This document shows positions 12,778 to 25,545 of a DNA stretch of 25,545 nt, in pieces. Origin of the DNA: a virus. Position numbers and translations under genes: made by a program. Every line of letters begins with the position of its first letter. The stretch's first letter is position 1. The notes beneath the pieces were generated by a model, which ran no database searches, was not told the DNA's origin, and saw only the letters and a list, made by a program, of their open reading frames with translations. The stretch covers positions 1 through 25,545 of IMG/VR virus record IMGVR_UViG_3300035698_013082. One strand, written 5' to 3'.

Positions 12778-13066
12778 TACAAAACCCCATGTTTTTATTT
12801 ACTATTGCCGTTTTTTCAGTAAAAATGTCAAGAAACTGTTTGTATGGGAGTGTACACCAATATCTCATACCAGCTGATGTTATAAGAGTATACTCTTTCC
12901 CGTTATGGTTTAGTTTTGTAAAATGAGATATTGACCATAAATCAAAGACTGTCGGCATATGAATATTCTCCTTTTCTGATTCAATCCCAAGCAATTCACT
13001 TGTTTTGTCACCATCCACATCATCATATTCACAGTCAACATAGAGATAGGCTAAACAATCACTCAT
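12770..13066 (-). CDS. Hypothetical protein, 98 residues
   Basis: It starts MSDCLAYLYVDCEYDDVDGD and includes MPTVFDLWSISHFTKLNHNG and TLITSAGMRYWCTLPYKQFL. Acidic N-terminus, soluble, two Cys near the start; no family recognised. Translation is coupled at both ends: TAATG with the gene before, and an 8-base overlap with the GT4-like gene after. An accessory subunit or regulator of a neighbouring enzyme is a guess only. Confidence 0.65.
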   Translation of the reverse strand: MSDCLAYLYVDCEYDDVDGDKTSELLGIESEKENIHMPTVFDLWSISHFTKLNHNGKEYTLITSAGMRYWCTLPYKQFLDIFTEKTAIVNKNMGFCNV

Positions 13067-13278
13067 TATTGTATACTCTCATTACAAGAATTAATATTTG
13101 ATCTTTCAAGAGCATTTTTTAGGCTTTCAGATTCAAAAAAATAATTATATACACCATTCGCGTCTTTATATATAAAACATTTTTTGTCTGTACACCATCC
13201 AATTTGACGATTCTTAAGATTTTCTTTTGTTACCATGGTTTCAAAAGTATCTTCGTATTGCTTAAATATTATTTCCAT
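13066..13278 (-). CDS. Small hypothetical protein with fibre-like GWCTD motif, 70 residues
   Basis: The start is MEIIFKQYEDTFETMVTKEN, followed by LKNRQIGWCTDKKCFIYKDA (21-40) and NGVYNYFFESESL. The 'xxGEIGyatDt...f.yyDgng' pattern occurs at the N-terminus of many phage tail-fibre and tropism-determinant domains; here it stands alone with no collagen-like or catalytic part. It may be an adaptor or a relic of a longer fibre gene. The start overlaps the sulfotransferase stop by one base. Confidence 0.55.
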   Translation of the reverse strand: MEIIFKQYEDTFETMVTKENLKNRQIGWCTDKKCFIYKDANGVYNYFFESESLKNALERSNINSCNESIQ

Positions 13279-13865
13279 TATTCTACCCTCTCTTTATACC
13301 TTAAACCACATTGCATACGCCCATTAGCACTTTTCCATTTATCCTTCGTTGATACCACCTTGTTAATATACTCTTTTTCTGGGCAATAGCCTATAATAGA
13401 ATATATTTGTTCTACAATTCCAAAGGGGTCATCTAACAGCATATCATAATACACCTCAAAATTATGGCTGTCATCCCTCAGAACGCTGTTAACAAATGGT
13501 ACATTATTTTTATACACTTCTCTCGCACCAACCTCATCATAGCCAAACGTTTTGTGGCATGACTTTGCACAATCATTTCGATTACGAATAATATTAAATA
13601 TCAAATGCTCCGGGAATAGGTCTATAAAATGGTTGATATAAGCCACTACACCCATTCCATTGCTATAGTATGGGAGTTTCTCACCAGAACCAATCCATGC
13701 GTTAGTCTCGACATAATTATTTAACGCATCTTCTGCTGTGTCGTATGTCATCAGCTTTCTACCCTCATGTATTAAGTCTGCTGATAGTGACGGGTGCATT
13801 GATATGATCCGCCTCAACATAGTTGTGCCTGACCTACAGAATCCGGTTACAAATATTGGTCTCAT
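13278..13865 (-). CDS. Sulfotransferase family protein
   Basis: The 195-residue protein begins MRPIFVTGFCRSGTTMLRRI, a P-loop-like 5'-phosphosulfate-binding motif (GFCRSGTTM, 8-16) typical of PAPS-dependent sulfotransferases. A second motif, FNIIRNRNDCAKSCHKTFG (90-108), matches the 3'-phosphate-binding loop (RxxxDxxxS). Length is short but compatible with a minimal domain. In the glycan island it would add sulfate groups to a sugar. PAPS would come from host sulfate activation. Stop and next start overlap by one base (TAATG). Confidence 0.8.
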   Translation of the reverse strand: MRPIFVTGFCRSGTTMLRRIISMHPSLSADLIHEGRKLMTYDTAEDALNNYVETNAWIGSGEKLPYYSNGMGVVAYINHFIDLFPEHLIFNIIRNRNDCAKSCHKTFGYDEVGAREVYKNNVPFVNSVLRDDSHNFEVYYDMLLDDPFGIVEQIYSIIGYCPEKEYINKVVSTKDKWKSANGRMQCGLRYKERVE

Positions 13866-13867
13866 GG

Positions 13868-14586
13868 CTATCCTTTGGTTAATCTATCCTCTATAATTTT
13901 TATATCTTCTGGGTAGTCTACTGCGTGACAGTTTGAGTCAACACATATCATTGATACGCATTCGAGATTTTCAAGAAACCTCAATATTTCTATGTCCTCT
14001 ACAGATTCAAGAGGTCTTTTTTCACCAAGTTTATAGAATTCTTCTAACTGATTTTTATAAAATCCATACACGCCAATTTGTTTTTTAGGCATATATGAAA
14101 CACCTTTTTTTGACATCGGGATCAATGCCCTTGACGCATACATTAAATCATTTTCTGAATCCGTTACGACTTTTACATACTTTGTGCTTTCAGGATTTTC
14201 TGTATCTTTGAAATAAGAATAACAATTATATGTTAGTGTTGCAGTTTTTGAATATTTTATCACTTTCTCAATAACATGAGGCTCAATCAATGGCTCATCA
14301 CCCTGCACATTAATAACATACTCGGTTTTTAGAATTCTGTTAGCCTCAGCACACCTGTCTATCCCTGTCAAACACTCGCCTGTCATAATAGAATTGTATC
14401 CGTAATCTCTCGCGCACTCATAGATCTCTTTCGAATCAGTAGCAATGCAAATGTCTACTTTTGTTTGACATAATTACATTGATTAGCTGTACGGATTACA
14501 ACAGGGATACCATCAATCGGATGCAGCATTTTGCCAAGAAAGCGTGTTGATCCTGCGCGGGCTGGAATTATTATGTTTGTTTTCAA
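13868..14586 (-). pseudogene. CMP-Kdo synthetase-like (KdsB-type) cytidylyltransferase, split by a frameshift
   Basis: Reading from TTG at 14586 gives (M)KTNIIIPARAGSTRFLGKML, the signature nucleotide-binding start of KdsB-like cytidylyltransferases. The start overlaps the upstream TGA (TTGA), and AGAAGGG lies seven bases upstream. This frame stops at a TAG near 14459 after about 42 codons. The remaining protein continues one frame away: VDICIATDSKEIYECARDYG, then NVQGDEPLIEP, ALIPMSKKG, KKQIGVYGFYK, RPLESVEDIEILRFLE and AVDYPEDI, all in family order. One extra A in the run of four (14459-14462) would restore a 239-residue protein, close to the usual length. As written the C-terminal part could only begin at ATG 14386 without the catalytic N-terminus. 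Whether it is mutated, sequencing error or recoded is open. Confidence 0.85.
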
Positions 14587-15527
14587 ATTAAACCCTTCTC
14601 ATATTTAATGTGTTTATCCCCTGGCAATTCTAACAATTTAACATATCGACATTGCACTGGCACACCGCCTTGTATCATACACTGATTATACAACGGATGT
14701 ATACCGAGCTTCGCACTCAACGAATAGCATATATCAGGTCCCCATTGATATTTGTCCTTTAGTAGCTGGAAATATTTCTCTTGCACTTTGAGTATCTCGT
14801 TAGGGTTCTCGTCTTCAAACAATAGTAATTTGGCAATATCGATATTGCCAGCACCCCGGCCCATACCTAAAATGGTTGCATCGACATATTCAACGAATAT
14901 ACTCGCATGTAAAGCGCTCTGCAACGCACCCCCATTATTATTGTGCAGATGTATGCCAACATTTTGCATACTCATCCTTGCAAAGTGCTTTACGTTTTTT
15001 GCTGATAATTGTCCAAAACTATCTGCAAAATACAGAGCCTCAATAGGCCAATCTTTTGTTGTATGCGAAATATCACAAAAATCATCCTCACCAACAAACG
15101 AAGCATACATAATGTTCAGAAACACTTTATATCCTAATTTGTCAAGTATATCAACTGCCTCCTCTGTGCATTTCATCTCATGTTGTTTTATTGCAATTCT
15201 GGCATATGTAAAAAAGTCTGATCTACCGATAGTATTTTTTAGCAGTTTGCTATCAAGTTTGCCATTGTCAATGTAGTCTTTAAGATCTATCATAAAACAA
15301 AAGTCGTTATGCTTATACTCTTCCTTTATCACAGAATTAAGATAATAATCCTCACAATATCTGAAACGTCCCAAACGGTTCTCTATTATTGGCGATTTAT
15401 AACCAAGCTCAATAATATCAACACCGCACGAATTCAATGCGTCAATCGTATCATTAACAAGATCTATATCCCAATACCAATCAGTGAGATATCCACCGTC
15501 TCTGAGAGTACAGTCTAATATTTTCAT
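14583..15527 (-). CDS. HMGL-like aldolase (DRE-TIM metallolyase superfamily)
   Basis: The 314-residue protein starts MKILDCTLRDGGYLTDWYWD; LDCTLRDGGY (4-13) is the diagnostic DRE-type metal-binding motif of this TIM-barrel superfamily (HMG-CoA lyase, 4-hydroxy-2-oxovalerate aldolase, isopropylmalate synthase). Later landmarks are ADSFGQL (168-174), GIHLHNNNGGA (191-201), the second metal-binding His pair, and GMGRGAGN (221-228). No C-terminal regulatory domain is present, so it resembles the aldolase members seen in surface-polysaccharide clusters. It would make or cleave a 2-oxo-4-hydroxy acid. Its neighbour is a CMP-ulosonate-type synthetase (TTGA overlap), which suggests joint synthesis of an activated keto-sugar acid. 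Confidence 0.85.
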   Translation of the reverse strand: MKILDCTLRDGGYLTDWYWDIDLVNDTIDALNSCGVDIIELGYKSPIIENRLGRFRYCEDYYLNSVIKEEYKHNDFCFMIDLKDYIDNGKLDSKLLKNTIGRSDFFTYARIAIKQHEMKCTEEAVDILDKLGYKVFLNIMYASFVGEDDFCDISHTTKDWPIEALYFADSFGQLSAKNVKHFARMSMQNVGIHLHNNNGGALQSALHASIFVEYVDATILGMGRGAGNIDIAKLLLFEDENPNEILKVQEKYFQLLKDKYQWGPDICYSLSAKLGIHPLYNQCMIQGGVPVQCRYVKLLELPGDKHIKYEKGLI

Positions 15528-16165
15528 AATACTCCTTCTAAATAATGCCGCTTAAACGCCGTTGGTGTAATAATTTTAAAATTAACACCAACACTTTTTA
15601 ACTCATCAAAAACTTTATACACAATATCATCTTTTTCTTTTTCGTACTCATAATCAGTACTATCAGAAAACTTATCACCATAACAATGCTGTTTAAATTT
15701 CTTATCTTCAAACGCTAGTGTATAGCCATCAAACCCAACACAATAAACATTCTCTGCACCAAGTATTTTCTGAGCAACAAATATGGCAAGGTTCCCACAA
15801 GTCCTAAATTTCCCCTTTACAATTTTATTATCTATTCCCATTTTGTGTTTAAACCGGTCTAAATAATCTATTTTGTAATATGGCATTCCAACAGTATCAA
15901 TGATGTTCTTTTTTAATTTACTGCCCAATATCAAAGTTGAATCACTGGATATTGTTTTGCCAAATGTTTTAAACCTGTCGTTATTTGTCCACATATGATA
16001 ATCCGGTTTTACAAACATTGACATATTGTTTATGCCTATAGTAAAGACTTTGTCTTTGTTTATAAATTTTTTAATTTGTTTTTCGTACAATTTAAGTGTA
16101 TAGCCAGCACCAACAACGACACACGTTCTACCAGCCTCTTTGTTTTTCAAATCAAAGACGTTCAT
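15524..16165 (-). CDS. DUF115/MptE-like protein, possible glycosyltransferase
   Basis: The start is ATG at 16165 with AAGGGGG upstream and ATGA overlap with a tiny upstream gene; a longer frame to 16339 is less credible. The 213-residue product starts MNVFDLKNKEAGRTCVVVGA, with a nucleotide-binding glycine loop (VVVGAGYTL, 17-25), TIGINNM (42-48), KPDYHMWTNNDRFKTFG (53-69) and RTCGNLAIFVAQKILGAENV (121-140) with YCVGFDG. This order is that of the DUF115 / 6-hydroxymethylpterin pyrophosphokinase MptE-like superfamily, which includes Maf-type sugar transferases for pseudaminic or related acids. In this cluster a sugar-acid transferase role fits with the aldolase and KdsB-like genes, by context. 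Confidence 0.7.
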   Translation of the reverse strand: MNVFDLKNKEAGRTCVVVGAGYTLKLYEKQIKKFINKDKVFTIGINNMSMFVKPDYHMWTNNDRFKTFGKTISSDSTLILGSKLKKNIIDTVGMPYYKIDYLDRFKHKMGIDNKIVKGKFRTCGNLAIFVAQKILGAENVYCVGFDGYTLAFEDKKFKQHCYGDKFSDSTDYEYEKEKDDIVYKVFDELKSVGVNFKIITPTAFKRHYLEGVL

Positions 16166-16221
16166 ACAACCCCCTTTATAAGAATAATAAATTTTATAAC
16201 ACAAATAATTAGAAATGTCAT
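16162..16221 (-). CDS. Tiny hydrophobic peptide, 19 residues
   Basis: ATG at 16221 overlaps the ParB-like stop (ATGA), and its own TGA overlaps the DUF115-like start (ATGA). The product is MTFLIICVIKFIILIKGVV, one probable membrane helix. Exact coupling at both ends supports real translation, or it may simply hand ribosomes on. Function unknown. Confidence 0.45.
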   Translation of the reverse strand: MTFLIICVIKFIILIKGVV

Positions 16222-16727
16222 ACTCGCTCCCAACTATAAACATCACATTCACAATCAATATCCAACACATACGCACACGCAAGCCTATGGTGGCCCTCGT
16301 ATATTTCATAATCACTCGCATTATGATTACTCTCAACAATTGGGCTGTCTAATAAAATAGGGGTCTCATTAATGCCGCTTGCTTTTATATCCTCATACAA
16401 CTCAATTAATTTATCACAGCGTTTTAGTGCACGAAACATGTCATCATTATTATATAACATCTGTAAAAAACAATATCGAGAAAATCTAACGTCTTTTGCA
16501 AACTCTTTCTTGCTAACATCGGCATATCTTTGCAGAGTAGTTACATGCGGTGACTGCAATAGTGATAGATATGAGCCTTTGTAACCTTCACAGAACACGC
16601 TTTTCCATATATTAAATCTATCCGGGTTATATTGACAGCATAATATACCAATCAAATCTTTACTCAGTTTTAGATTGCCAAGCTTTGTCAACTTAATGTG
16701 ATTTTTCAACAACTCTTTATATGTCAT
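16218..16727 (-). CDS. ParB-like domain protein of the glycan island
   Basis: The 169-residue protein begins MTYKELLKNHIKLTKLGNLK. Near the end, YEIYEGHHRLACAYVLDID (140-158) matches the ParB/sulfiredoxin-fold GxHRxxA box, where the fold binds a nucleotide. The N-terminal 120 residues are helical, with no HTH recognised, and Cys-rich patches lie at 30-31 and 156-161. Such stand-alone ParB-like proteins occur next to polysaccharide and tail genes and their function is not settled. It may be a nucleotide-dependent enzyme rather than a partition protein. It overlaps both neighbours by ATGA. Confidence 0.6.
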   Translation of the reverse strand: MTYKELLKNHIKLTKLGNLKLSKDLIGILCCQYNPDRFNIWKSVFCEGYKGSYLSLLQSPHVTTLQRYADVSKKEFAKDVRFSRYCFLQMLYNNDDMFRALKRCDKLIELYEDIKASGINETPILLDSPIVESNHNASDYEIYEGHHRLACAYVLDIDCECDVYSWERV

Positions 16728-17437
16728 TTATTCATCCTTTTTTTTAACCTATTCATCCTTTTTTTTAACCATACATCATACATCTTATTTCTCGTTTTAT
16801 AACCTATATACTCAGATTGCATTTCGATTGTATAGTCTTTGTCCATAAACTCTCTGTAAGTCTTCCTGAATGGCATTAAATCAGGATTATATTTGTTTTT
16901 CCACAGTATATACGCCAGTGCTATTTGATCCCGTCCGGACCCACGTTGCACCTCGTAAAACCAATTGTCCATTAGCATAGCTATCGTTGTTGTGTGTCGC
17001 CGTATCATTATCCCAGGAGCAAATAGCCCGTATCTCTCAGGCATGCCACCACGCCGGTATTCCATAGCAATATTAACGTCTTTGGTTGTGAGTAGTTTAG
17101 CCTCTTTGTATAAACAGTCTCTACGGTTGTGTTTCATTACTGCCATGTTGTGTTTTAGGTTGCGCTTGACGAACCTGTCGAGGTCTTGCCTAATGGTGAA
17201 TCGTGTATCTAAATAGATAGACAAGTCAGCGTCAAATGGTGGCACTATTTTCACGCGCCTGGACAATTTCAAATCGCTCAAGCCAAAGTTGTTTGTGATA
17301 TATTTCATATCCCACAGGCCAGACTTAATATTATAATTATTTGTATAGCAGATATATTTCCAACCTTTTGTAATATATGCTGGCTCGTTTAGCGTGTAGT
17401 TTTTGCCGATTATTACTGAGTATATCGTTTTGTTCAT
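16724..17437 (-). CDS. DUF616/TOD1-like glycosyltransferase
   Basis: The 237-residue protein starts MNKTIYSVIIGKNYTLNEPA. Family landmarks are YICYTNNYNIKSGLWDMKYI (28-47), SRRVKIVPP (59-67), ADLSIYLDTRFTI (70-82; D77 for the DxD-like site) and MAVMKHNRRDCLYKEA (98-113). The sequence order 'TDN...W......R..K..P......siY.Da...i..Dl..f......a...H..R.c.Y.Ea' is that of the TOD1/MUCI70-like domain. It should be a soluble sugar transferase. The C-terminus carries a duplicated heptapeptide. An intergenic 12 bases and a small peptide gene precede it. Confidence 0.75.
   Translation of the reverse strand: MNKTIYSVIIGKNYTLNEPAYITKGWKYICYTNNYNIKSGLWDMKYITNNFGLSDLKLSRRVKIVPPFDADLSIYLDTRFTIRQDLDRFVKRNLKHNMAVMKHNRRDCLYKEAKLLTTKDVNIAMEYRRGGMPERYGLFAPGIMIRRHTTTIAMLMDNWFYEVQRGSGRDQIALAYILWKNKYNPDLMPFRKTYREFMDKDYTIEMQSEYIGYKTRNKMYDVWLKKRMNRLKKRMNK
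16729..16770 (-). repeat. 21-base perfect tandem duplication at the 3' end of the DUF616-like gene
   Basis: Two identical 21-base units lie side by side (16729-16749 and 16750-16770) and duplicate seven residues, giving LKKRMNRLKKRMNK at the protein end. Each unit contains an AAGGA ribosome-binding element; the copy nearest the next start (16727) serves as its likely Shine-Dalgarno site. The duplication is recent, as the copies are identical. Confidence 0.8.
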
Positions 17438-17449
17438 AATATCATAACC

Positions 17450-17506
17450 TTAAATAAACGCGCGGAGCTGTCTTATGTCAGAAACAGAATCGTTCCAATT
17501 AATCAT
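17450..17506 (-). CDS. Tiny peptide after the methyltransferase, 18 residues
   Basis: ATG overlaps the methyltransferase TGA (ATGA) and codes for MINWNDSVSDIRQLRAFI before TAA. It could be the remnant of a longer gene or a coupling leader for the following glycosyltransferase. No other support. Confidence 0.35.
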   Translation of the reverse strand: MINWNDSVSDIRQLRAFI

Positions 17507-18009
17507 ACATTCCTCACAATCGTTAAACCGTAATAAAACGGCAATGTTAAAACCTCAATATTGACAATTTCAAGGCAGTCATCAAGATACTCACGTATTC
17601 TATGCGCATCCCAACAATAATGTTCACTCTGACACTTCTCCCCAGGGGGGAATGTGTCATGCAGTATAATCATGCCGGTTCTTTTTAGACTATTGAATGC
17701 ATTGTCAAAGTCTTTTTGAACCTGCGAATACTCATGCAGACCATCGATAAAAATTAAATCATACTTGTTTTTGTCGTTTTTAAAATAATCATCACTCGTG
17801 CATACGTTAACATCAGCATCAAAATTTACACATTTACGCATTTTTTCGTTTACATCGACAGCATGCGCATGTTTGAATAACGGCCCTACTTTGTTGAACG
17901 TCCTGGCATGCTGCACACCAATCTCAAGATATTTTCCGTTGTGTCCAGCAGCACAGAGACCTTTTGCTATTTCGTAGATTATGTTTATGTGAGCGGTTTT
18001 ACTGTACAT
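17503..18009 (-). CDS. Class I SAM-dependent methyltransferase
   Basis: The 168-residue protein contains KYLEIGVQHARTFNKVG (26-42), the glycine-containing motif I that binds S-adenosylmethionine (E29-x-G31). HAVDVNEKM (49-57) supplies the acidic residue contacting the ribose. YDLIFIDGLHEYSQVQKD (83-100) and GMIILHDTF (112-120) complete the Methyltransf_24-like pattern (D-x-IFIDG.H.Y..v..D). It is soluble and minimal in size. In glycan clusters such enzymes methylate sugars or their phosphates, an assignment by context. The start overlaps the previous stop (TAATG). Confidence 0.85.
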   Translation of the reverse strand: MYSKTAHINIIYEIAKGLCAAGHNGKYLEIGVQHARTFNKVGPLFKHAHAVDVNEKMRKCVNFDADVNVCTSDDYFKNDKNKYDLIFIDGLHEYSQVQKDFDNAFNSLKRTGMIILHDTFPPGEKCQSEHYCWDAHRIREYLDDCLEIVNIEVLTLPFYYGLTIVRNV

Positions 18010-18209
18010 TATATTATTACTCTGCGTAACCCATTTACTATACGGTAAAAATCCCTATCTATGCTTTCATCATAACAAGTACCGTCCTCTTTATCTTCGT
18101 CATGATCTAAAGAAAATAAACCATGCAGAAAATTATGCTCACCCTGCGTTTCAACAACAATTTTGTAAGGCTCAAACGCTTTCTTTTTGGTAATCTCTTC
18201 AATTCTCAT
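18009..18209 (-). CDS. Hypothetical protein, 66 residues
   Basis: The small acidic protein starts MRIEEITKKKAFEPYKIVVE and includes GLFSLDHDEDKEDGTCYDES; no family recognised. The opening KKAFEPYKIVVET is reminiscent of small beta-barrel phage accessory proteins. ATGA overlap with the upstream glycosyltransferase and TAATG with the downstream methyltransferase show it is part of the same coupled operon. Confidence 0.65.
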   Translation of the reverse strand: MRIEEITKKKAFEPYKIVVETQGEHNFLHGLFSLDHDEDKEDGTCYDESIDRDFYRIVNGLRRVII

Positions 18210-19042
18210 AACGCAACACCTTTCTCCTCAAAATATTTCTCAATTCGCCATTTCCAAATAGCGCCAACACTCTCATTTAACGGATGATTACGACTCGCTT
18301 GCTTGTGTGTGAAAAAAGCTTTACCTTTATAGTGCCACTCACACATATGCTCAGGTTTTTGTATGCACAGATCTCTCATGTTACCATTCTTATATGGGAG
18401 TTGCTCACCACCATTGCCACACAACACTCTCGGCATAGCATAACCAGAATAACCGGCATTCTTAATTATACATGGTAACGCCCACCCAGTATCTTGCTTA
18501 AAAAGACTCCCAACAGGTAATCCAACAACATTAGCCAAATCCTTTGTTTTAATTTTTGATTTTAACACAGATTCTTTTCCGTCAACTAACGCCGGATAAA
18601 AATTGAGTATTGGCGCTATTTTAGGATTGAACGCAAACATATACACCGTTGGAAAATTTTTGTATTTGTGTTTTGCTTGCCCGTAATCTCCACCAAAACA
18701 CACACATTTATCTTTGATCCGTTTACATACAATTTCATCCCAATTAGGATACAAAACCGCCGTGTCGGCATCTATAAATATTGCAATATCTGGCATCTCA
18801 GTATTAATTAAATTAACAAGCGCGGATTGCATAGCCTCGGCATGATTATAACTATTGTGTCCCAAGTTTGGAGAGCTACCAACACACGTCCATCCATCCG
18901 GCCCTTTGCCTACGTAATTAGATTTAATATATTTCCATCGTAGATCATGGTTACCACTCGACATAGCAATGGCAGTTTTTTGCAGGAACTCGGCGTAGTC
19001 TGTACTATTGCGAGTTATAAATGTATATATGTCTATTTTCAT
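18206..19042 (-). CDS. GT-A fold glycosyltransferase-like protein
   Basis: The 278-residue protein starts MKIDIYTFITRNSTDYAEFL. Its key segment is DIAIFIDADTAVLYPNWDEI (85-104), where DAD (91-93) is a canonical metal/nucleotide-sugar-binding DxD. Later features include VCFGGDYGQAKHK, KQDTGWALPCIIKNAG, and MCEWHYKGKAFFTHKQASRN near the end with conserved His and Trp, as in inverting GT-A enzymes. No membrane segment. Donor and acceptor unknown. The start overlaps by ATGA the restored frame of the preceding cysteine-rich gene. Confidence 0.75.
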   Translation of the reverse strand: MKIDIYTFITRNSTDYAEFLQKTAIAMSSGNHDLRWKYIKSNYVGKGPDGWTCVGSSPNLGHNSYNHAEAMQSALVNLINTEMPDIAIFIDADTAVLYPNWDEIVCKRIKDKCVCFGGDYGQAKHKYKNFPTVYMFAFNPKIAPILNFYPALVDGKESVLKSKIKTKDLANVVGLPVGSLFKQDTGWALPCIIKNAGYSGYAMPRVLCGNGGEQLPYKNGNMRDLCIQKPEHMCEWHYKGKAFFTHKQASRNHPLNESVGAIWKWRIEKYFEEKGVAL

Positions 19043-19275
19043 TTGGTTCTTTCGTCGATCAATGTTTCGAACACTAATGTTTTGTCATGACAGATGTCTA
19101 TGCAAATTGTAGAATGCTTGTCATGCCCGCGCCATTCTCACGGCTCACCAAACAAAACACACCAATCGCCACAGAATATACTATAATTACCCTCTTGAAA
19201 TGGGCAGCGTGACCCCTTCATTGTCCCACTACGCTCTATGCAAATACGCCCATCCATTCTAATTTTTCCGTTCAT
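19039..19275 (-). pseudogene. Cysteine-rich small protein interrupted by an in-frame TGA
   Basis: ATG at 19275 (AAGGTG upstream) reads MNGKIRMDGRICIERSGTMK then GSRCPFQEGNYSIFCGDWCV and ends LFGEP at TGA 19140-19138. The same frame continues for 32 residues (EWRGHDKHSTICIDICHDKT, then LVFETLIDERTK) to a TGA whose last bases overlap the next start (ATGA at 19042-19039). The tight coupling of the second end implies that the gene originally ran through. The intact form would be 78 residues with six Cys, likely metal-binding. A single base change explains the stop; readthrough or a selenocysteine codon cannot be excluded but no supporting element was seen. Confidence 0.7.
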
Positions 19276-19411
19276 CGTCATCACCTTTATTAATGAATTC
19301 GCCATTATATTCTTTTTTGAAAAACGTTATGTCTTTACATATCGATAACGCGCAATCATCACAAATACCATTAACAACTGCACGATCTCTACCACAAGAC
19401 GTACATTTCAT
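19259..19411 (-). CDS. Small zinc-ribbon-like protein, 50 residues
   Basis: The protein starts MKCTSCGRDRAVVNGICDDC, giving two CxxC pairs (C3/C6 and C17/C20), a typical zinc knuckle, followed by a short FFKKEYNGEFINK tail and an acidic end. ATG overlaps the previous TGA (ATGA), with AGAGG upstream. It overlaps the next gene by 17 bases. It may bind zinc and a nucleic acid or protein partner. No named family. Confidence 0.6.
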   Translation of the reverse strand: MKCTSCGRDRAVVNGICDDCALSICKDITFFKKEYNGEFINKGDDDERKN

Positions 19412-19608
19412 TGCATCCTCTCATGCTCATCTAAATTATTATCGATACCAAACCAGTCAGCCATGTGTTTTAATGCAATACGCACACCATACGACACACT
19501 ACCACGATTAGGCCGTTTATTACCACTAAACATTTTGGAGATTGTTTTCGCAACGTCCTTGGCTTCTGGCTCAATGAGTATTCTGTGTTCAACAAGTTTC
19601 TTTTTCAT
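19408..19608 (-). CDS. Small protein, 66 residues, first gene after a promoter
   Basis: It starts MKKKLVEHRILIEPEAKDVA and continues KTISKMFSGNKRPNRGSVSY, GVRIALKHMADWFGIDNNLD. Basic first half, amphipathic second half; a small DNA-binding or regulatory role is possible but no fold is recognised. The ATG has no Shine-Dalgarno site and lies seven bases after the -10 of a consensus-like promoter, so the message is probably leaderless. Confidence 0.6.
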   Translation of the reverse strand: MKKKLVEHRILIEPEAKDVAKTISKMFSGNKRPNRGSVSYGVRIALKHMADWFGIDNNLDEHERMQ

Positions 19609-19615
19609 ATTGTTT

Positions 19616-19644
19616 AATATAGCCTATATCATTATGTTTGTCAA
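19616..19644 (-). promoter_or_regulatory. Sigma70-like promoter with palindrome over the -10, leaderless arrangement
   Basis: TTGACA (19644-19639), a 17-base spacer and TATATT (19621-19616) read leftward. A perfect palindrome ATATAG-G-CTATAT (19617-19629) overlaps the -10 and could be an operator. The ATG at 19608 lies within the expected start region. It drives at least the small-gene and glycosyltransferase group from 19608 to the left. Confidence 0.85.
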
Positions 19645-19649
19645 GTTAT

Positions 19650-19787
19650 TTATTTTTCGGCCAAATATATTTGTAGGCATGCACATATTGTGATACATAT
19701 AAAAAGCGCATCAGAAGACATTTGCCCTAATATGTACGGGATTGTAACAACAACAGTAAACACAAACAAAATACCGCGCTGAATCAT
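19650..19787 (-). CDS. Small membrane protein, 45 residues, two probable spans
   Basis: ATG overlaps the GT2 stop (ATGA). The product starts MIQRGILFVFTVVVTIPYIL and ends ICITICACLQIYLAEK, two hydrophobic segments (about 5-20 and 28-42) separated by a short polar loop. No family recognised; holin-like topology is possible but such a call needs more. It is the last gene before the 19616-19644 promoter. Confidence 0.6.
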   Translation of the reverse strand: MIQRGILFVFTVVVTIPYILGQMSSDALFICITICACLQIYLAEK

Positions 19788-20494
19788 TTTTTCACCCACT
19801 TTGTAAAATTACACTTTTTAACTTTGCGAGAATCGTTATCAGGCAACAACTGAGGGCGAGTATACTCCGTTTTCTCCATCCATTCACGGCCAATATCATT
19901 GACTATGATACGATTAATTCCATACGGATACGCTTTGACCATATGATGTCTTCTGTATATTGGACTGACACACTGTACTTTTTTGGTGTATTTGTTAATG
20001 AAATCATGCAGCTGTGTCTCCGGATTATTAACAATATTCAAACGTGCAGACACATCTTTGAAAAACGATGTTCTATAGAATGATGGAGATAGTGGTATTG
20101 TTCTGTAAGCATAACTGTATGCGCGTAAAGCAACTGCATTAACATTTTGATTGTCAAACTGTCTTATAACATCATCTACTAATACACGCTCTGTAAGTTT
20201 CCAGTCATCTTCTAAATTAAGAAACCATTCATTTTCAGGTTGTTTCCATAACCATTTATATGCTGCTGGAAAGTTAGCTTGTTTTGGAACATGAATATTC
20301 CAGTGTCCGAAATATTTACCCACAACACTTAGAACGTCTACCTGTGCTTTGCCTTCTGGCAATGGGTCAACATTGATATGACATGTACTATTCTCCCAAT
20401 CCACACCCTTCAGATTTTTGTGGAATGATGCATATGTTCTATCTAATATTTCCGGTCTGCACATTGCCGTCGTTGTCACTTCAATTGATATCAT
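19784..20494 (-). CDS. Glycosyltransferase family 2-like (GT-A fold)
   Basis: The 236-residue protein starts MISIEVTTTAMCRPEILDRT (GT2-type beginning), with HINVDPLPEG (39-48), FPAAYKWLWKQPENEWFLNL (75-94) and EDDWKLT (95-101); EDD is the metal-binding site. The N-terminal nucleotide-sugar fold is clear; the C-terminal half has basic segments (HMVKAYPYGINRI). Cytoplasmic, acceptor unknown. Start overlaps the DUF1353-like stop (ATGA). Confidence 0.75.
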   Translation of the reverse strand: MISIEVTTTAMCRPEILDRTYASFHKNLKGVDWENSTCHINVDPLPEGKAQVDVLSVVGKYFGHWNIHVPKQANFPAAYKWLWKQPENEWFLNLEDDWKLTERVLVDDVIRQFDNQNVNAVALRAYSYAYRTIPLSPSFYRTSFFKDVSARLNIVNNPETQLHDFINKYTKKVQCVSPIYRRHHMVKAYPYGINRIIVNDIGREWMEKTEYTRPQLLPDNDSRKVKKCNFTKWVKK

Positions 20495-20934
20495 TTTTTC
20501 CTCAATTTATTTAACTTAGAAGGTTTTCCGTAACACACTCCACCAAACATTCTAACGACACGATAAAACAGGCTCCTCATAGTTGGCCTAACCTCGTCAA
20601 GCTCCATGCCGAGTAAAAATATCCTATCAGCGAGCTTTCTTGTACACCATTCTGGTGGATACGAATACAGCCAATCGTGTATACATGCCGCACGACCATA
20701 TCGACCGTCATCTTTTCCGGTACCAGGCTTTTTATACAGAGCCCTGACAACCGGGGGGATAGATGCAAAGTCAAATATAAACCCGTGTTTCGGCGTGACT
20801 TCGAAATACTCGCTATCAGTGCACATTTTTAATGTTAATGGGTTTGTAGACTGATCAAGTTTCCACATATTGCCGTCGATGTATTCAACTTTTAATTTGC
20901 CAGTATACACGCCTGTCAATTTAGATTTTGCCAT
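20491..20934 (-). CDS. DUF1353 family phage protein
   Basis: The 147-residue protein has GFIFDFASIPPVVRALYKKP (51-70) and YGRAACIHDWLYSYPPEW (79-96), the conserved 'GF.tDfaSIP ... a.aaviHDwLY' core of DUF1353, common in phage genomes and often near lysis or tail genes. The conserved His-Asp and Asp residues suggest a metal-dependent hydrolase-like fold, but its function is not established. It lies within the glycan island between two glycosyltransferases, coupled to the downstream one. Confidence 0.85.
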   Translation of the reverse strand: MAKSKLTGVYTGKLKVEYIDGNMWKLDQSTNPLTLKMCTDSEYFEVTPKHGFIFDFASIPPVVRALYKKPGTGKDDGRYGRAACIHDWLYSYPPEWCTRKLADRIFLLGMELDEVRPTMRSLFYRVVRMFGGVCYGKPSKLNKLRKK

Positions 20935-20937
20935 ATT

Positions 20938-21666
20938 TTAATCCTTTAGATTTGCAGGTGCGCCTTTACGTTTCATATGCCCCATGTAATAATCCTTATC
21001 ATCATTGTAATCAGCGTCAACATGATTATACTGCTCGCAGTCAAACAGCTCTATCTTATAGTTCTGATAACGCCGACGATCTATCTTGCGCTTAACCAGT
21101 GCAGATAGGAATATCTGATCTACCCACCACCTAAAATTAGTGCGGTTGTGAGTCTTTTCGGGCTTTCTGTTCTCTTCCAAAGTTTTCCATATTTCGTCAT
21201 ACTCAGGGATTTTATCACTACCAAAATTTTGTATACAATCTAACGCATCGAATAGTATTCCCTGATTTTGTATATAGAAGACACCACCATTCGCAAACGC
21301 CCGCATCGGTCTACCTCTCTCAACAAATGGTTTACGAATAGTAATTCCAATGTCAAACGTTTTATCGTAAACATGAGAAAAATCTTTGCAGAAAAACGTA
21401 TCAAAATCACAAAATGTAATATTTTGAGCTGGAAGGTGTGTCATACAAAACCAGAATTTCAGCATTTGCATTTGCGTATCCCACCGGTGTTTATCTATCT
21501 GCACGTATTTAATATCATAAGCTGTAAGCTCTGTGTGTTGCCTGTCTGTGATATCAGGGCCAAACAGCACACACTCAGCGTCTTTCATAATATGGCGAGT
21601 CTCAAGGAAGTGTTTGCCGTATTCGAAATATCGGCTATCTGACATTGTTACTATTGTGTGTTTCAT
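20938..21666 (-). CDS. Glycosyltransferase, GT8-like (GT-A fold)
   Basis: The 242-residue protein begins MKHTIVTMSDSRYFEYGKHF. FCDFDTFFCKDFSHVY (85-100) has the DFD metal-binding motif (87-89), and RAFANGGVFYIQN (122-134) is the family's second conserved block (NGGVFY). RWWVDQIFLSALV follows, resembling the D-Q segment of GT8-type enzymes. A good site (AAGGAG, six bases, ATG) overlaps the leader peptide stop (ATGA). It should transfer a sugar in the cytoplasm. Confidence 0.8.
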   Translation of the reverse strand: MKHTIVTMSDSRYFEYGKHFLETRHIMKDAECVLFGPDITDRQHTELTAYDIKYVQIDKHRWDTQMQMLKFWFCMTHLPAQNITFCDFDTFFCKDFSHVYDKTFDIGITIRKPFVERGRPMRAFANGGVFYIQNQGILFDALDCIQNFGSDKIPEYDEIWKTLEENRKPEKTHNRTNFRWWVDQIFLSALVKRKIDRRRYQNYKIELFDCEQYNHVDADYNDDKDYYMGHMKRKGAPANLKD

Positions 21667-21707
21667 AATTCTCCTTTATCTATCCACTCACTAATTCCAC
21701 TCAACAT
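21663..21707 (-). CDS. Possible leader peptide, 14 residues
   Basis: ATG at 21707 codes for MLSGISEWIDKGEL, and its TGA overlaps the glycosyltransferase start (ATGA). It lies about 13 bases after the expected transcription start of the upstream promoter and has no good Shine-Dalgarno site. It could couple translation to the GT8-like gene or be chance. Confidence 0.35.
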   Translation of the reverse strand: MLSGISEWIDKGEL

Positions 21708-21726
21708 TTTTTATTAGAGTCTCCGT

Positions 21727-21756
21727 ATAATAACAACGCTTTTAGGTTTTTGTCAA
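21727..21756 (-). promoter_or_regulatory. Sigma70-like promoter before the GT8-like gene
   Basis: TTGACA (21756-21751), an 18-base spacer and TATTAT (21732-21727), one mismatch in the -10. It begins 25 bases after the stop of the HTH gene, in the non-coding gap before the GT8-like gene, so it likely serves the genes from 21707 leftward. No clear palindrome was found here. Confidence 0.7.
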
Positions 21757-21781
21757 TGTCTTTTTCTAAATCGTAAAGTTT

Positions 21782-21994
21782 TCATTCTTTACCATTAAAA
21801 TTCTTAAAAAACTTAAATTCATGCGCATCCATAAAACAATCACCACTAAGTAAATTCCTAAGCCTACATGGGGATGCTCCTAATAGTATAGCAATTTCAC
21901 GGTTTGTAAGACCGCTATCTTTTATTTTAGTATAAAAAAGATTTGGAAAAGTTGTACTTTTTCCACGGGTTGTAGATTCTAAGCGTTTCCTCAC
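21782..21994 (-). CDS. HTH DNA-binding protein (Cro/C1-like, small)
   Basis: The 70-residue protein uses a GTG start with AAGGAG six bases upstream. GLTNREIAILLGASPCRLRN (28-47) is a typical XRE-type helix-turn-helix, with helices around NREIAILLGA and SPCRLRNLLSG. A basic N-terminus (RKRLESTTRGK) precedes it. It is the only obvious transcription regulator here and sits directly upstream of the 21756 promoter, so it may bind the palindromic promoters of the island, an inference from position. Length suits a dimeric Cro-type repressor. Confidence 0.7.
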   Translation of the reverse strand: MRKRLESTTRGKSTTFPNLFYTKIKDSGLTNREIAILLGASPCRLRNLLSGDCFMDAHEFKFFKNFNGKE

Positions 21995-22004
21995 TTGTTA
22001 CTCC

Positions 22005-22289
22005 TTAAGTTATACCGCCTCGTGCAAACTCACTTGCACCATTTAAAAAATCAGACAATTGTTTAAATTTATTAATACGATTAGCCTTTATATAAGCATA
22101 AAGCGCGCCCTTCTCATAATCATATTCATCATCCTCCCTACACTTTACAACGCCCTTTCGCCCATCCTTGAGTATTACGATAGTCGTAGTGTTGCTGGAG
22201 ATGATTTTTGTCACGAAATGTTTAGAAATAGCCAAATAATCAGCACAATACGGATTATCGCAGGTTTTACCATATTTTTTAGCACCCAT
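22005..22289 (-). CDS. Hypothetical protein, 94 residues
   Basis: It begins MGAKKYGKTCDNPYCADYLA with two Cys, then TKIISSNTTTIVILKDGRKG, VVKCREDDEYDYEKGALYAY. Soluble, with a mixed beta-rich middle that resembles small phage accessory proteins; no family recognised. It overlaps the end of the GT4-like gene by 11 bases, so it is co-translated. It is followed by the HTH gene after 10 bases. Confidence 0.65.
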   Translation of the reverse strand: MGAKKYGKTCDNPYCADYLAISKHFVTKIISSNTTTIVILKDGRKGVVKCREDDEYDYEKGALYAYIKANRINKFKQLSDFLNGASEFARGGIT

Positions 22290-23211
22290 CTAACAACTCC
22301 AGCATATACTCATAACTCGCATCAAGCGAAAATCTACCAACAGCCTGGGACCGACACATAACAGCAATATTATTATCATAATCAGATAGTAAATTCTCAG
22401 CGATATCAACGGCGTTGTATTTGTGATGTATCCTATACCCGAAAATATCGATGTTATAGAATTTATTCATCGGCCCCATGTACGCCACAGGCAACCCACA
22501 CATTCCCATTTCGACAAACGACTGTGGGAAACCCTCGGCTGTGATATCTGATAGGATGACACCGACTTTAGCCTTATTGATATAATGATGCACACGGTCA
22601 GGTCCGCAAGGCTCTGTCAATAGTAGCGTGTGTTTAGAGTTGCTGACTTTACTCTCATGTTTCTTGCCACCAATCCAAATAATAGAACGACGTTCTTTTA
22701 TACTGGCAAGTTCGTTAATAAACCACGCCTCATTTTTATCCCCGCGCTTACCAACAAAGCAATAATCATATTCCTTGACTTTCGTGTTAGGATACCAGAA
22801 ATTTTCGTCCTTTCCCTTAAACCACAGCCTACAATTGTCACCATCACCCAAAGCACTGTCAACATCGACGAGTGATACATCAGCATAACGATTGTGTCGA
22901 TTGTAAGAGCAGCAACTATAATACAGTTTTTTGTTGTCGAGGAGTTTAAGTATTTTGTCCTTCTCAGGATCGTGCTTAACCGACCACACAACAGCGTCGG
23001 GTTGTGTGCTGAGATACTCAAGCAGTGCATCGGGATTGCAAATGCTTGCTTCCCATTTTTCACGACACTGCTGAGGTGCGAGGTATATAATCTCACCAAA
23101 TTTCTCAGCATACGACCGATATCCGCACGTTGTTTTACCGTCTATCATAGACTGTTGTTTTTGGTGCATTCTGTCTGAGAATTTACCGTATAGGATGATT
23201 AGTTTTTTCAT
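22279..23211 (-). CDS. Glycosyltransferase, GT4-like (GT-B fold)
   Basis: The 310-residue protein starts MKKLIILYGKFSDRMHQKQQ. In the C-terminal half, SIIWIGGKKHE (176-186), KVGVILSDITAEGFPQSFVE (215-234) and MGMCGLPVAYMGP (235-247) match the GT4 donor site: E226 and E234 form the usual E-x7-E pair. The N-terminal half carries a Rossmann-like acceptor domain with Cys and His runs. It should be a cytoplasmic retaining sugar transferase. Start overlaps the preceding gene by ATGA. Confidence 0.85.
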   Translation of the reverse strand: MKKLIILYGKFSDRMHQKQQSMIDGKTTCGYRSYAEKFGEIIYLAPQQCREKWEASICNPDALLEYLSTQPDAVVWSVKHDPEKDKILKLLDNKKLYYSCCSYNRHNRYADVSLVDVDSALGDGDNCRLWFKGKDENFWYPNTKVKEYDYCFVGKRGDKNEAWFINELASIKERRSIIWIGGKKHESKVSNSKHTLLLTEPCGPDRVHHYINKAKVGVILSDITAEGFPQSFVEMGMCGLPVAYMGPMNKFYNIDIFGYRIHHKYNAVDIAENLLSDYDNNIAVMCRSQAVGRFSLDASYEYMLELLDGC

Positions 23212-23432
23212 GCGTTATTCATTCTCTCATCCATTTTCCCAAATTCTACACCGTTAAGAAAAAGGCGAAATGCCCTATTTGTTTCACCGTGATTGTACCA
23301 CTCTCCGGCAAGTAGTCTTTTTTGATCCTCCATTGCTGGCTTATCAAATCGATAATTTCCATATTCGTTTTTTGAAACACACCTTTCAAAAAAATCAACA
23401 GCTTCATAAAATTCTTTTGAATACGCTTTCAC
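23208..23432 (-). CDS. Hypothetical protein, 74 residues (GTG start)
   Basis: I place the start at GTG 23432 since AAGGAT lies upstream of it and the promoter at 23486-23458 ends before it; an ATG 34 codons upstream (23534) would place the promoter inside the gene, which is less likely but possible. The product (M)KAYSKEFYEAVDFFERCV continues KNEYGNYRFDKPAMEDQKRL, LAGEWYNHGETNRAF and ends DERMNNA. It is charged and helical, with no domain I recognise. It is coupled to the GT4-like gene by ATGA. Confidence 0.6.
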   Translation of the reverse strand: MKAYSKEFYEAVDFFERCVSKNEYGNYRFDKPAMEDQKRLLAGEWYNHGETNRAFRLFLNGVEFGKMDERMNNA

Positions 23433-23457
23433 AGCCTGCCATCCTTTGGTTATTATT

Positions 23458-23486
23458 AATATAGCCGACAACATTGGTGTTGTCAA
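23458..23486 (-). promoter_or_regulatory. Sigma70-like promoter with an 18-bp palindrome (operator-like)
   Basis: TTGACA (23486-23481), a 17-base spacer, TATATT (23463-23458). A perfect inverted repeat GACAACA-CCAA-TGTTGTC (23484-23467) runs from the -35 into the spacer, a typical repressor site. The segment GGCTATATTAA is identical to that of the promoter at 19616-19644. Confidence 0.85.
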
Positions 23487-23509
23487 GTTGTTTTTTACAA
23501 CGTCCGCGA

Positions 23510-23779
23510 TTATGCGAAGTGCCGTTTGATACATTCTATAATTCTATGGCCATGAGACGAATCTTTGGAATAGTTGATAATTCTCAAAACTTCGTCAGCG
23601 CATTTTATATAATCGCTGTAGTTGGATGTAAAATTTAACTCGCCGCCGTTACTTAAAGAAACCCCTTCGATATTGGCAATTAATTTAGTACGAATGAACT
23701 TGTACACTAAGCCGTGCTCGTGAGTAGATAGTTTACCCAGCTCTTCGATTATTTCATCTTTTAAACTTAATCTAGACAT
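23510..23779 (-). CDS. Hypothetical protein, 89 residues
   Basis: The protein starts MSRLSLKDEIIEELGKLSTH after AAGGAG and continues EHGLVYKFIRTKLIANIEGV, then SDYIKCADEVLRIINYSKDS, ending IKRHFA. Mostly helical and soluble; similar small helical proteins are common in phage accessory regions. Its end overlaps the alternative long start of the next gene by 25 bases. No family recognised. Confidence 0.65.
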   Translation of the reverse strand: MSRLSLKDEIIEELGKLSTHEHGLVYKFIRTKLIANIEGVSLSNGGELNFTSNYSDYIKCADEVLRIINYSKDSSHGHRIIECIKRHFA

Positions 23780-23796
23780 TTACTGCTCCTTAAATT

Positions 23797-23883
23797 TTAT
23801 TTCCTACAACGTTCTGCAAATGTTGGCAGTGTACCCATTGCCGGCTTTGCGTGTTGTGAGATGTTAAAAATTATTGCTGCCAT
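23797..23883 (-). CDS. Small protein, 28 residues
   Basis: ATG at 23883 overlaps the end of the broken membrane-protein frame. The product MAAIIFNISQHAKPAMGTLP goes on TFAERCRK before TAA. It has no Shine-Dalgarno site but reads sensibly and overlaps its neighbour. Function unknown. Confidence 0.4.
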   Translation of the reverse strand: MAAIIFNISQHAKPAMGTLPTFAERCRK

Positions 23884-24000
23884 ATAAAAAATACAGCCAA
23901 CACAAACCAACCGATACCGGAATTACCACCTGCATGCGTATATTAATAACCCACATACGCATGCAGCGGCAACTGTAGAAAGCCCTTTGTCAAATTTCAC
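23871..24000 (-). pseudogene. Small membrane protein, apparently broken by a +1 frame change
   Basis: GTG at 24000 after GGGGGTAAG starts (M)KFDKGLSTVAAACVCGLL and stops at TAA 23925-23923. One frame later, GGNSGIGWFVLAVFFIWQQ continues to a TAA at 23873-23871 with no start of its own. Joined, they give a 44-residue protein with two hydrophobic segments and a short loop, a common small phage membrane-protein layout. The break falls in a 12-bp inverted repeat. Alternatively they are a 25-residue peptide plus unused sequence, or an ATG frame at 23956 (MWVINIRMQVVI) is used. Confidence 0.4.
23930..23966. repeat. 12-bp perfect inverted repeat with 13-base loop
   Basis: CTGCATGCGTAT (23930-23941) is complementary to ATACGCATGCAG (23955-23966). 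No T-tract follows on either strand, so it is not a typical terminator. It lies inside the small membrane-protein gene and may be an mRNA hairpin, a protein-binding site or the source of the frame break. Confidence 0.7.
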
Positions 24001-24018
24001 CTTACCCCCAAAACAATA

Positions 24019-24160
24019 CACCGAACAGGGAATTGAACCCTGTGCAGCAAGCCTTAAGTTTATAAATATGGTGAAGAGTGTAGAAACCGCTACTTTCTTT
24101 GATCGACGTTTGCAACCGTACAGCGTTCAGAACCTCATGACCCGCCTACACACATTCACC
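24019..24160 (-). ncRNA. Possible structured RNA with a tRNA T-arm-like hairpin
   Basis: On the minus strand, GGTGAA-TGT-GTGTAG (24160-24146) pairs with CTACAC-TC-TTCACC (24083-24070): 12 base pairs around a small internal loop, enclosing 62 bases. Downstream, CAGGG-TTCAATT-CCCTG (24042-24026) is a perfect T-arm, loop included, followed by TTCGGTG as an acceptor-like strand. No matching 5' acceptor (CACCGAA), D-arm or anticodon arm was found, so it is not a normal tRNA. Options are a tRNA-derived attachment core (attP), a tRNA-like end of a longer RNA, or a relic. The stretch contains no credible gene. Confidence 0.35.
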
Positions 24161-24168
24161 CTATCTGA

Positions 24169-24276
24169 TTAATCCACATCAAACAATTTTAAAATATCAA
24201 GCTTTTTCCAATTTTGAATTTTTCCTTCTGGATCAATATTCATTATTATATAATCACCAAACCCGTCACTTGACAT
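24169..24276 (-). CDS. Small protein, 35 residues
   Basis: ATG at 24276 codes for MSSDGFGDYIIMNIDPEGKI, then QNWKKLDILKLFDVD. The composition is protein-like and not random. AAGGAGT lies upstream but too close to the ATG (one base), so the start is uncertain. It follows the GT4-like gene by 15 bases. Function unknown. Confidence 0.5.
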   Translation of the reverse strand: MSSDGFGDYIIMNIDPEGKIQNWKKLDILKLFDVD

Positions 24277-24291
24277 ACTCCTTGTATATTT

Positions 24292-25182
24292 TCATGATAT
24301 CATCTCCACAAACCTCAGCATATTACTCTCCCGGGCACCAATCGCATGCAGCATATTACGCATTGCGTTAACTTTGCTATAATCGATAGTGTCTATTGCG
24401 ACTAACAACTCGTCGAAAGTCTTGAACGGCGTTGCTGTATCAGGTGTGCAGTAATCAGACGTTCCACCATGAGGGACGTCGTTATAAATAATAGGACACC
24501 CACACAACGCAGCCTCGGCCGGCATTTGATGAAATCCTTCATTTGTCGATAGAGATAGCCAACAAGAGCATGCATTATAAACCTCTCTCATTTTAATTTT
24601 ATTATAATTAGAATCAGAGAATACATGGGCAAGATTTTGGTCACAATAAATCAACTTATCTATAATACCATTGTCTTTGAATTTATGTTTTCTATGATCG
24701 AGCACTCCTGAATACATTGGCATTTTGGGAACCTGCGTCAATTTCTTCCAGAAATCCAAATCCAACCCCGCAAAACAACACTCAGCATCCACGCCAATAT
24801 CATTACACTTATCGATTAAATGCGTGGCGTTGGTGATGATTTTACCGTAAAGGCTAAACTGTCGCAACTTATCAATCAATATTTTTTCTCCATAAACCCA
24901 ATCCTCCCAACCACGCAGCCACCAGACAACATTACGGTGCCAAATATCCATAGTGCTCTGTGCATCCCAAACAGACACGCACACAACAACATCATATTTA
25001 TTTGCATGCGTCATGTCAGGCAAAATTGGCACTCCGATAGTGCCCCAGGTGTAACGATTCACCATTGACACTATCGCTACCTCACAGCCTAACGATTGCA
25101 ATGTTTCGGCACTGCGAATGATGGTTTTTGACCCGCCGTTATTGCCGAGGGATGAGTTATATGCGTTGAATAGGATTTTCAT
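24292..25182 (-). CDS. Glycosyltransferase, GT4-like (GT-B fold)
   Basis: ATG at 25182 overlaps the Ser-X repeat stop (ATGA). The 296-residue product starts [20 protein letters not shown], a typical GT4 acceptor-domain opening with a glycine-rich loop. WLSLSTNEGFHQMPAEAALC (208-227) and GCPIIYNDVPHGG (228-240) form the donor site: E215 and E223 fit the E-x7-E pattern. The reading frame stays open upstream through the hexanucleotide repeat as Val-X dipeptides, so a longer product starting at an in-repeat ATG cannot be excluded; the conserved core starts at the chosen ATG. The G-rich repeat supplies AGG-type ribosome-binding bases three bases before it. Confidence 0.85.
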   Translation of the reverse strand: MKILFNAYNSSLGNNGGSKTIIRSAETLQSLGCEVAIVSMVNRYTWGTIGVPILPDMTHANKYDVVVCVSVWDAQSTMDIWHRNVVWWLRGWEDWVYGEKILIDKLRQFSLYGKIITNATHLIDKCNDIGVDAECCFAGLDLDFWKKLTQVPKMPMYSGVLDHRKHKFKDNGIIDKLIYCDQNLAHVFSDSNYNKIKMREVYNACSCWLSLSTNEGFHQMPAEAALCGCPIIYNDVPHGGTSDYCTPDTATPFKTFDELLVAIDTIDYSKVNAMRNMLHAIGARESNMLRFVEMIS

Positions 25183-25418
25183 GAACCTGACCCTGACCCT
25201 GACCCTGACCGTGACCCTAACCATAACCGTGACCCTGACCATGACTTTGACCGTGACCGTGACCATGAACCTGACCATGAACCTGACCGTGACCCTGACC
25301 CTGACCATAACCGTGACCGTGACCATGACCCTGACCATGACCCTGAACGTGACCGTGACCATGAACCTGAACGTGACCTTGACCTGTCGTATCCAAGTTT
25401 TAATATTGTTTGATTCAT
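25179..25418 (-). CDS. Ser-X dipeptide-repeat protein (X = Arg/Gly/Trp), 79 residues
   Basis: ATG overlaps the stop of the truncated gene upstream (ATGA), and its TGA overlaps the glycosyltransferase start (ATGA). After a unique [11 protein letters not shown], the rest is [16 protein letters not shown]-type alternation: nearly every second residue is Ser, encoded TCA, alternating with Arg, Gly or Trp from NGG/NGT codons (one Lys; three Ser positions are Leu). No signal peptide or membrane span. I know no phage family with this layout. Ser-rich, Arg/Trp-containing repeats could be disordered, bind RNA or be O-glycosylated by the adjacent enzymes. The coupling at both ends is the main evidence for translation in this frame. 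Confidence 0.65.
25183..25386 (-). repeat. Degenerate hexanucleotide repeat array (GGTCAN), 34 units
   Basis: The minus strand is GGTCAN about 34 times (204 bases), with N variable and a few changes (T for C, T for G). The last unit supplies the stop/start overlap TCATGA. Three GGG runs spaced by TCA occur just before the glycosyltransferase start and could form a G-quadruplex in DNA or RNA. The array is open in two minus frames and in at least one plus frame, so openness alone is weak evidence of coding. Confidence 0.85.
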
Positions 25419-25545
25419 CTTTGAACTACGTCAATGTGTATTTTTAATTCTGTGGCATCGACAATACTACCACGGCCAATAATAACGTCATTTTCTCCAT
25501 AAATTTCAGACTCGTTTGGCGTGCCAGTTTTGAGAAATTCAGTAA
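25415..25545 (-). CDS. Truncated gene at right edge, C-terminal 43 residues
   Basis: The frame enters from the right edge and ends at TGA 25417-25415. The visible end includes TGTPNESEIYGENDVIIGRG and [17 protein letters not shown], which reads as a real protein (a beta-rich end with charged turns). The frame is kept and its stop overlaps the Ser-X gene start by ATGA. Identity unknown from this fragment. Confidence 0.65.
   Translation of the reverse strand, partial: TEFLKTGTPNESEIYGENDVIIGRGSIVDATELKIHIDVVQR

Follow-up and report, generated by a model that had tools for sequence, protein, structure and literature searches.

Does a short stretch of DNA that reads as serine alternating with arginine, glycine or tryptophan encode a protein, and if so what would that protein do for a phage? 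The stretch lies on the minus strand of a linear virus record of 25,545 bases, the whole of which we analysed and refer to as the window. A preliminary description had claimed a 79-residue frame of alternating Ser and Arg, Gly or Trp whose start and stop both form ATGA overlaps with neighbouring genes, and had proposed a glycan acceptor, an RNA-binding peptide or a DNA element that codes only incidentally. The frame and both overlaps are present as claimed (Table 1), with the ATGA at 25179-25182 common to the stop of the frame and the start of the next gene. The alternation holds overall, although Lys also occurs among the residues paired with Ser and Leu stands in place of Ser at three positions; the encoded Ser-X (SX) protein contains 31 Ser, 14 Gly, 12 Arg and 8 Trp and has a net charge of +13. 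Because the array lies only 160 bases from the end of the window, the gene upstream, hereafter the partner, is truncated. Its 42-residue remnant is about 47–56% identical to the best partners of the type that we call family I (E about 5e-7, blastp, small set), and the SX leader is of the matching family I type. The rest of the window's partner gene lies beyond the contig end, and the Sm-like fold described below was predicted on full-length family I relatives.

Table 1. Features of the window around the SX gene and in the sugar cassette
Feature	Coordinates	Strand	Basis or remark
SX gene, 79 aa	25179-25418	-	ORF and translation; same architecture in >100 related loci; purifying codon selection in relatives
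SX leader, 11 residues, family I type (consensus MNAAILRTGFD)	25386-25418	-	Leader statistics
Hexamer array, 34 units; alternating Ser / Arg-Gly-Trp body with a few Leu and Lys	25182-25385	-	
ATGA stop/start overlap, partner to SX gene	25415-25418	-	
Upstream partner gene, family I, 3′ end (last 42 codons and stop)	25415-25543	-	blastp of 42 residues
Glycosyltransferase gene, ATGA overlap with SX stop	24292-25182	-	Pfam GT1 weak, below cut-off; PHROG glycosyltransferase 2.6e-6
GT2-like	10165-10878	-	
GT9-like	10875-11708	-	
GT1-like	11887-12777; 22279-23211	-	
Sulfotransferase	13278-13865	-	
Cytidylyltransferase resembling CMP-sugar synthetases	13868-14386	-	
HMGL-like	14583-15527	-	
MptE-like, weak	15524-16339	-	
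TOD1-like	16724-17437	-	
Methyltransferase	17503-18009	-	

The sugar cassette of the window and its relation to the SX gene

Glycosyltransferases of several families occur in the window, as had been noted before, within a phage-borne sugar cassette that spans 10165-25182 on the minus strand and is abutted by the SX gene. The serines could be O-glycosylated by phage glycosyltransferases, as in serine-rich repeat adhesins, and the next gene, which overlaps the SX gene by ATGA, resembles a glycosyltransferase and lies inside the cassette, speaks for this idea. Against it, adjacency of the two genes is not recurrent among SX homologues: matches to glycosyltransferase families occur in 2 of 97 downstream and 1 of 81 upstream neighbours of SX genes, and most SX-bearing records, which may be fragments, show no GT2 match (20 of 30) and no GT1 match (26 of 30). 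A search of viral contigs found no relatives of the window's glycosyltransferase, and no near DNA matches were found in phages. With glycosyltransferases so rarely next to SX genes, glycosylation of the serines does not account for these proteins in general, and we consider the glycan-acceptor idea very unlikely; we judge the window's glycosyltransferase to be a local neighbour in the sugar cassette of this phage and not a conserved part of the module described below. Streptococcal and staphylococcal serine-rich repeat adhesins do have Ser-rich repeats in common with SX proteins, but they are large, exported and glycosylated, whereas SX proteins are short, carry no export signal by eye and have no recurrent glycosyltransferase. 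Nothing in the SX proteins resembles a long exported protein with a cell-wall anchor, their leaders being either like MNAAILRTGFD or short and basic.

Coding character of the repeat

A hexamer-pattern scan of viral contigs returned at least 119 stretches of this kind. Well over 100 related loci, which were gathered by similarity and are not independent, and around which gene calls are mechanical, share one architecture, a leader of about 11 residues followed by (Ser-X)n in which X is Gly, Arg or Trp in about 92% of units and in which the body reaches nearly to the stop; most of the proteins have 40–100 residues, with a median net charge of +9. The start in the SX frame usually precedes the array by 24–42 bases and the stop follows shortly past it. 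Among 69 loci with enough upstream sequence for a comparison of frames, 63 have an open SX frame that starts nearby, whereas an ATG is found in the other two same-strand frames in 13 and 18. Most complete arrays begin about 20–50 bases past the end of a small gene, the partner, which is of one of two related types (families I and II). Together these findings support the earlier claim of a real, translationally coupled Ser-X gene.

Across 62 unique partner-selected family I genes, with only identical SX genes merged, X is Gly in 525, Arg in 471 and Trp in 397 units (about 92% of the total), and the Ser position is encoded by TCG (870), TCA (302), AGC (231) and TCT (50). In 54 family II genes the dominant Ser codon is TCT in 26, TCG in 19, TCA in 5, AGC in 2, and AGT and TCC in 1 each. 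As AGC and TCN cannot be interconverted by one synonymous step, the same protein pattern is written on different hexamers. Changes at the third base of the X codon fall mostly where they are silent: in family I, a non-G third base occurs in 56 of 870 GGN/CGN codons but, at the cost of Trp, in only 6 of 403 TGN codons (p=6e-5), and in the array-selected set the counts are 31 of 797 versus 3 of 468 (p=2e-4), with both p-values to be taken as guides only because the units are not independent. In leader codons, too, the third position is the most variable (entropy 1.25, 1.15, 1.69). From the changing Ser codon and the sparing of Trp codons by third-base changes, we conclude that selection acts on the protein. 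Glycine is almost always GGG and arginine AGG or CGG despite silent options, and lineages that differ in their Ser codon still have the GG of NGG; the two Arg codons seldom occur in the same gene, with essentially one of them used in 52 of 62 genes.

The array had at first been read as a DNA element because the longest open frame differed between loci, and some observations speak for a DNA or RNA element with incidental coding. Only one of the six bases in TCANGG arrays varies appreciably, and the GG of X codons persists at sites where a synonymous change is available; in 87 arrays of at least 12 units, variation affects 51% of units at one hexamer position and 3% at the other five. A frame-independent element with one free base was nevertheless dropped as a candidate: the frame that had been read was the longest open one, but it is the Ser-X frame that holds the leader and start, and other Ser codons at partner-selected loci also speak against it. 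Two variable positions are frequent among the arrays from a reversed-hexamer control, which is the pattern that wobble would give in coding repeats. Incidental coding is contradicted by the codon evidence, in which the Ser codon and hence the hexamer differ between genes and Trp codons are spared, and by a leader and start conserved in one frame while the other frames usually lack starts; we give this explanation almost no weight. The observation that had been named in advance as refuting the gene, a frame broken by the array in related phages, was looked for and found in only one lineage of longer, degenerate arrays (L039, L061, L076 and L124) and in L060.

The order of X residues is highly variable. 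Two loci whose partners are 98% identical and whose flanking DNA is 93% identical (L366 and L367) match in X order at 0.50, against a random expectation of 0.52 (sd 0.11), and another pair (L047 and L075) differs by a seven-unit deletion. Slippage in six-base unit steps keeps the frame and can explain the scrambling, and repeat assembly from mixed strains may add to the apparent variability. Identical X residues in adjacent units are rarer than in shuffled sequences (0.282 versus 0.312, sd 0.007).

A two-gene module with a predicted Sm-like partner

An all-against-all comparison of neighbours revealed one widely recurrent family, the partner, at 58 loci, directly upstream in 49 of them, and nothing else widespread. 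We retrieved loci from IMG/VR with the partner only, blind to the repeat. Out of 424 loci so obtained for family I and 226 for family II, we examined 79 and 80, respectively. The SX gene comes next in 76 of 79 family I loci by automatic count and in 74 of 79 on inspection, the automatic calls at L405 and L414 being false; two of the three automatic misses (L395 and L433) show a leader with a short or truncated body. Among family II loci with enough sequence the SX gene comes next in 72 of 77, and most of the other five have a very short SX body. A similar test at control ORF ends in the same loci gave 118 of 4338, some of them perhaps real SX genes at the margin. Overlaps of the ATGA type join the two reading frames for 47 of 64 genes in family I and for 26 of 54 in family II. 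The repeat thus almost certainly encodes a protein, as the second gene of a conserved phage module of two, partner then SX, often with a four-base stop/start overlap, and such a gene lies right behind the gene for a predicted Sm-like partner in hundreds of uncultured phages. Other neighbours of SX genes are diverse and often DNA-metabolism genes, and the upstream neighbour is on the same strand as the module in 77 of 104 cases.

Structure prediction points to an Sm/LSm fold for the partner. An AlphaFold2 model of family II, built from an alignment of 23 sequences, reached a pLDDT of 90.7, and among the best 50 PDB matches listed almost all are Sm or LSm proteins (top Z 10.9, rmsd 2.1, 68 aligned); the family I model (pLDDT 87.7) aligns to an archaeal Sm protein with Z 10.1 and rmsd 1.6 over 64 residues, both models having been compared with Foldseek and VIA. 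The two families are homologous (hhalign probability 96.7). From these models we consider it very probable that the partner adopts an Sm/LSm fold. The predicted small beta barrel is one that the partner would share with the superfamily of archaeal SmAP, eukaryotic Sm/LSm and bacterial Hfq proteins, with Z of about 10 to archaeal and eukaryotic Sm chains, but the phage protein differs in having no sequence-profile match: LSM and Hfq profiles in Pfam, PHROGs and NCBIfam scans did not match it, and we accordingly call it Sm-like by fold only. No partner family exceeded threshold in PDB sequence searches or PADLOC, and hhalign against one approximate E. coli Hfq sequence, a weak test, gave no meaningful alignment. 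DUF6897, MM0924_fam and phrog_7000 came up as possible identities and were left because all are sub-threshold.

The leader follows the partner type. Leaders behind family I partners resemble MNAAILRTGFD, and those behind family II partners are short and basic, such as MIRGKKQKW and MRSIKQKYR; an acidic residue at leader positions 9–12 is found in 48 of 64 family I but 1 of 54 family II proteins, and mean leader charge is 0.09 versus 3.70. Docking of the leader on the partner would produce such a match, and common descent of linked genes would give it too.

Module carriers belong among tailed phages as far as gene content indicates, with a terminase match in 12 of 30 SX-bearing records and P22-like genes in the annotated record MW202573. 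A plasmid search for the module gave no match, and the partner was found in 1 of 385 genomes of the class containing a Rickettsiales metagenome-assembled genome and in 0 of 369 genomes of a second bacterial class, a search run without a positive control. A scan of bacterial and archaeal genomes for hexamer arrays returned mostly pure microsatellites, with one clear true member. That locus (L326, 3812-3967, in the Rickettsiales assembly RXKF01000051.1) is the only one found in a bacterial genome with a full partner and SX gene, and is a prophage or a binned phage; the microsatellites (L245-L361) are of the TCANGG type with an invariant N position and are spread across very diverse bacteria and archaea. 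Neither SX nor partner has an above-threshold match in Pfam, PHROGs, NCBIfam or PADLOC, and we found no description of the module in open PubMed Central papers. The module thus appears undescribed in the open literature searched, and descriptions elsewhere may exist.

Possible function and related systems

The suggestion that SX is an RNA-binding peptide gains indirect support from the predicted Sm/LSm fold of the partner and the basic, aromatic repeat. We propose that the Sm-like protein forms an RNA-binding assembly, probably a ring, and that the SX protein, a separate polypeptide translationally coupled to it, docks through its leader and serves as a basic nucleic-acid-binding tail (rough probability 0.45). 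The Trp-containing low-complexity body would be multivalent and may condense RNA, and in-frame 6-bp slippage would change its X order without altering composition, as is expected of a disordered sticker-and-spacer tail. A little more tentatively, hundreds of uncultured tailed phages may carry such a ribonucleoprotein system, in which an Sm-fold protein would act during infection with a hypervariable (Ser-Arg/Gly/Trp)n polypeptide from a gene of its own to bind or condense RNA.

Some observations sit poorly with this proposal. The partner has no Sm or Hfq profile match, the strict Ser alternation is more ordered than a disordered tail needs (hexamer slippage could maintain it), and the model leaves unexplained why X codons retain GG where change is silent. 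An Sm fold alone is no proof of RNA binding, which holds our probability at the value given, and it may act on proteins instead, as in Rof (YaeO), an Sm-like protein that inhibits rho (PMC11018626). Phages are silenced by rho and need antitermination (PMC11018626), and the partner might, like Rof or an antiterminator, block rho or modify RNA polymerase early in infection while the Arg/Trp-rich SX protein binds nascent RNA. Consistent with such transcription control, the P22-like MW202573 has the module in its early region, on the strand opposite to repressor and helicase genes, and neighbours elsewhere are often involved in DNA metabolism. The usual same-strand orientation of the upstream neighbour argues against it, because the module is then generally not the first gene of a divergent early operon, and we regard this explanation as unlikely. 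Rof resembles the partner in being a small protein with the Sm-like fold predicted here, but it is cellular and unpaired with a Ser-X repeat protein.

Less likely still is a toxin–antitoxin or lysis-like pair, in which a cationic SX protein would harm membranes or RNA and the Sm-like protein would restrain it. A small coupled pair in fixed order, with a leader that tracks the partner and an Arg/Trp-rich cationic product, would suit this arrangement. Toxin–antitoxin pairs are usually common in bacterial genomes, however, whereas the partner is nearly absent from the two classes searched; PADLOC and plasmid searches gave no match, and the SX body has no conserved residue order. The probability beyond the readings named here belongs to functions that we have not considered.

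Returning to the ribonucleoprotein proposal, the closest parallels are LSm and Sm proteins with RG/RGG-rich tails, such as LSM14/Scd6, SmB, SmD1 and SmD3. The module would be a split counterpart of these, through which a phage might handle its own or host RNA: both would combine an Sm fold with a basic, low-complexity Arg/Gly-rich region, but the phages encode the low-complexity part in its own gene, and in it Ser alternates strictly and Trp is abundant. Eukaryotic SR proteins have Arg-Ser dipeptides in common with SX but are built of an RRM and an RS domain, whereas SX consists of leader and repeat only, without an RRM, and has Gly and Trp about as frequent as Arg. A crystal structure reportedly exists for an Sm-like protein of putative cyanophage origin, which would resemble the partner in its probable phage source and Sm fold; PDB sequence searches gave no match for the partner, and the cyanophage protein has no SX companion known to us. 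If the proposal is right, phages encode a split version of a supposedly eukaryotic theme, an Sm-type core with an Arg/Gly/aromatic low-complexity tail, and offer a compact, tractable system for how low-complexity tails work. Natural SX variants, which scramble the order at constant composition or, in some lineages, have Tyr, Met or Leu instead of Trp, constitute a ready test of composition versus sequence.

Gene callers and low-complexity filters can overlook real genes among the short low-complexity ORFs of phages, and the module offers a handle on several hundred phage loci that are now hypothetical or unannotated. Two annotated phage records carry it: in MW202573 partner and SX gene are both labelled 'hypothetical protein', and in MW202825 the partner and the first of two tandem SX frames are without annotation. 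Among the variants, Tyr replaces Trp in the SX protein downstream of a partner match at L501 (SYSRSYS), and many X positions are Met in L449 and Leu in L445 and L499. Tandem duplicate SX genes, each with its own start, lie behind a single partner in MW202825 (L363, 5650-6010), L046 and L010.
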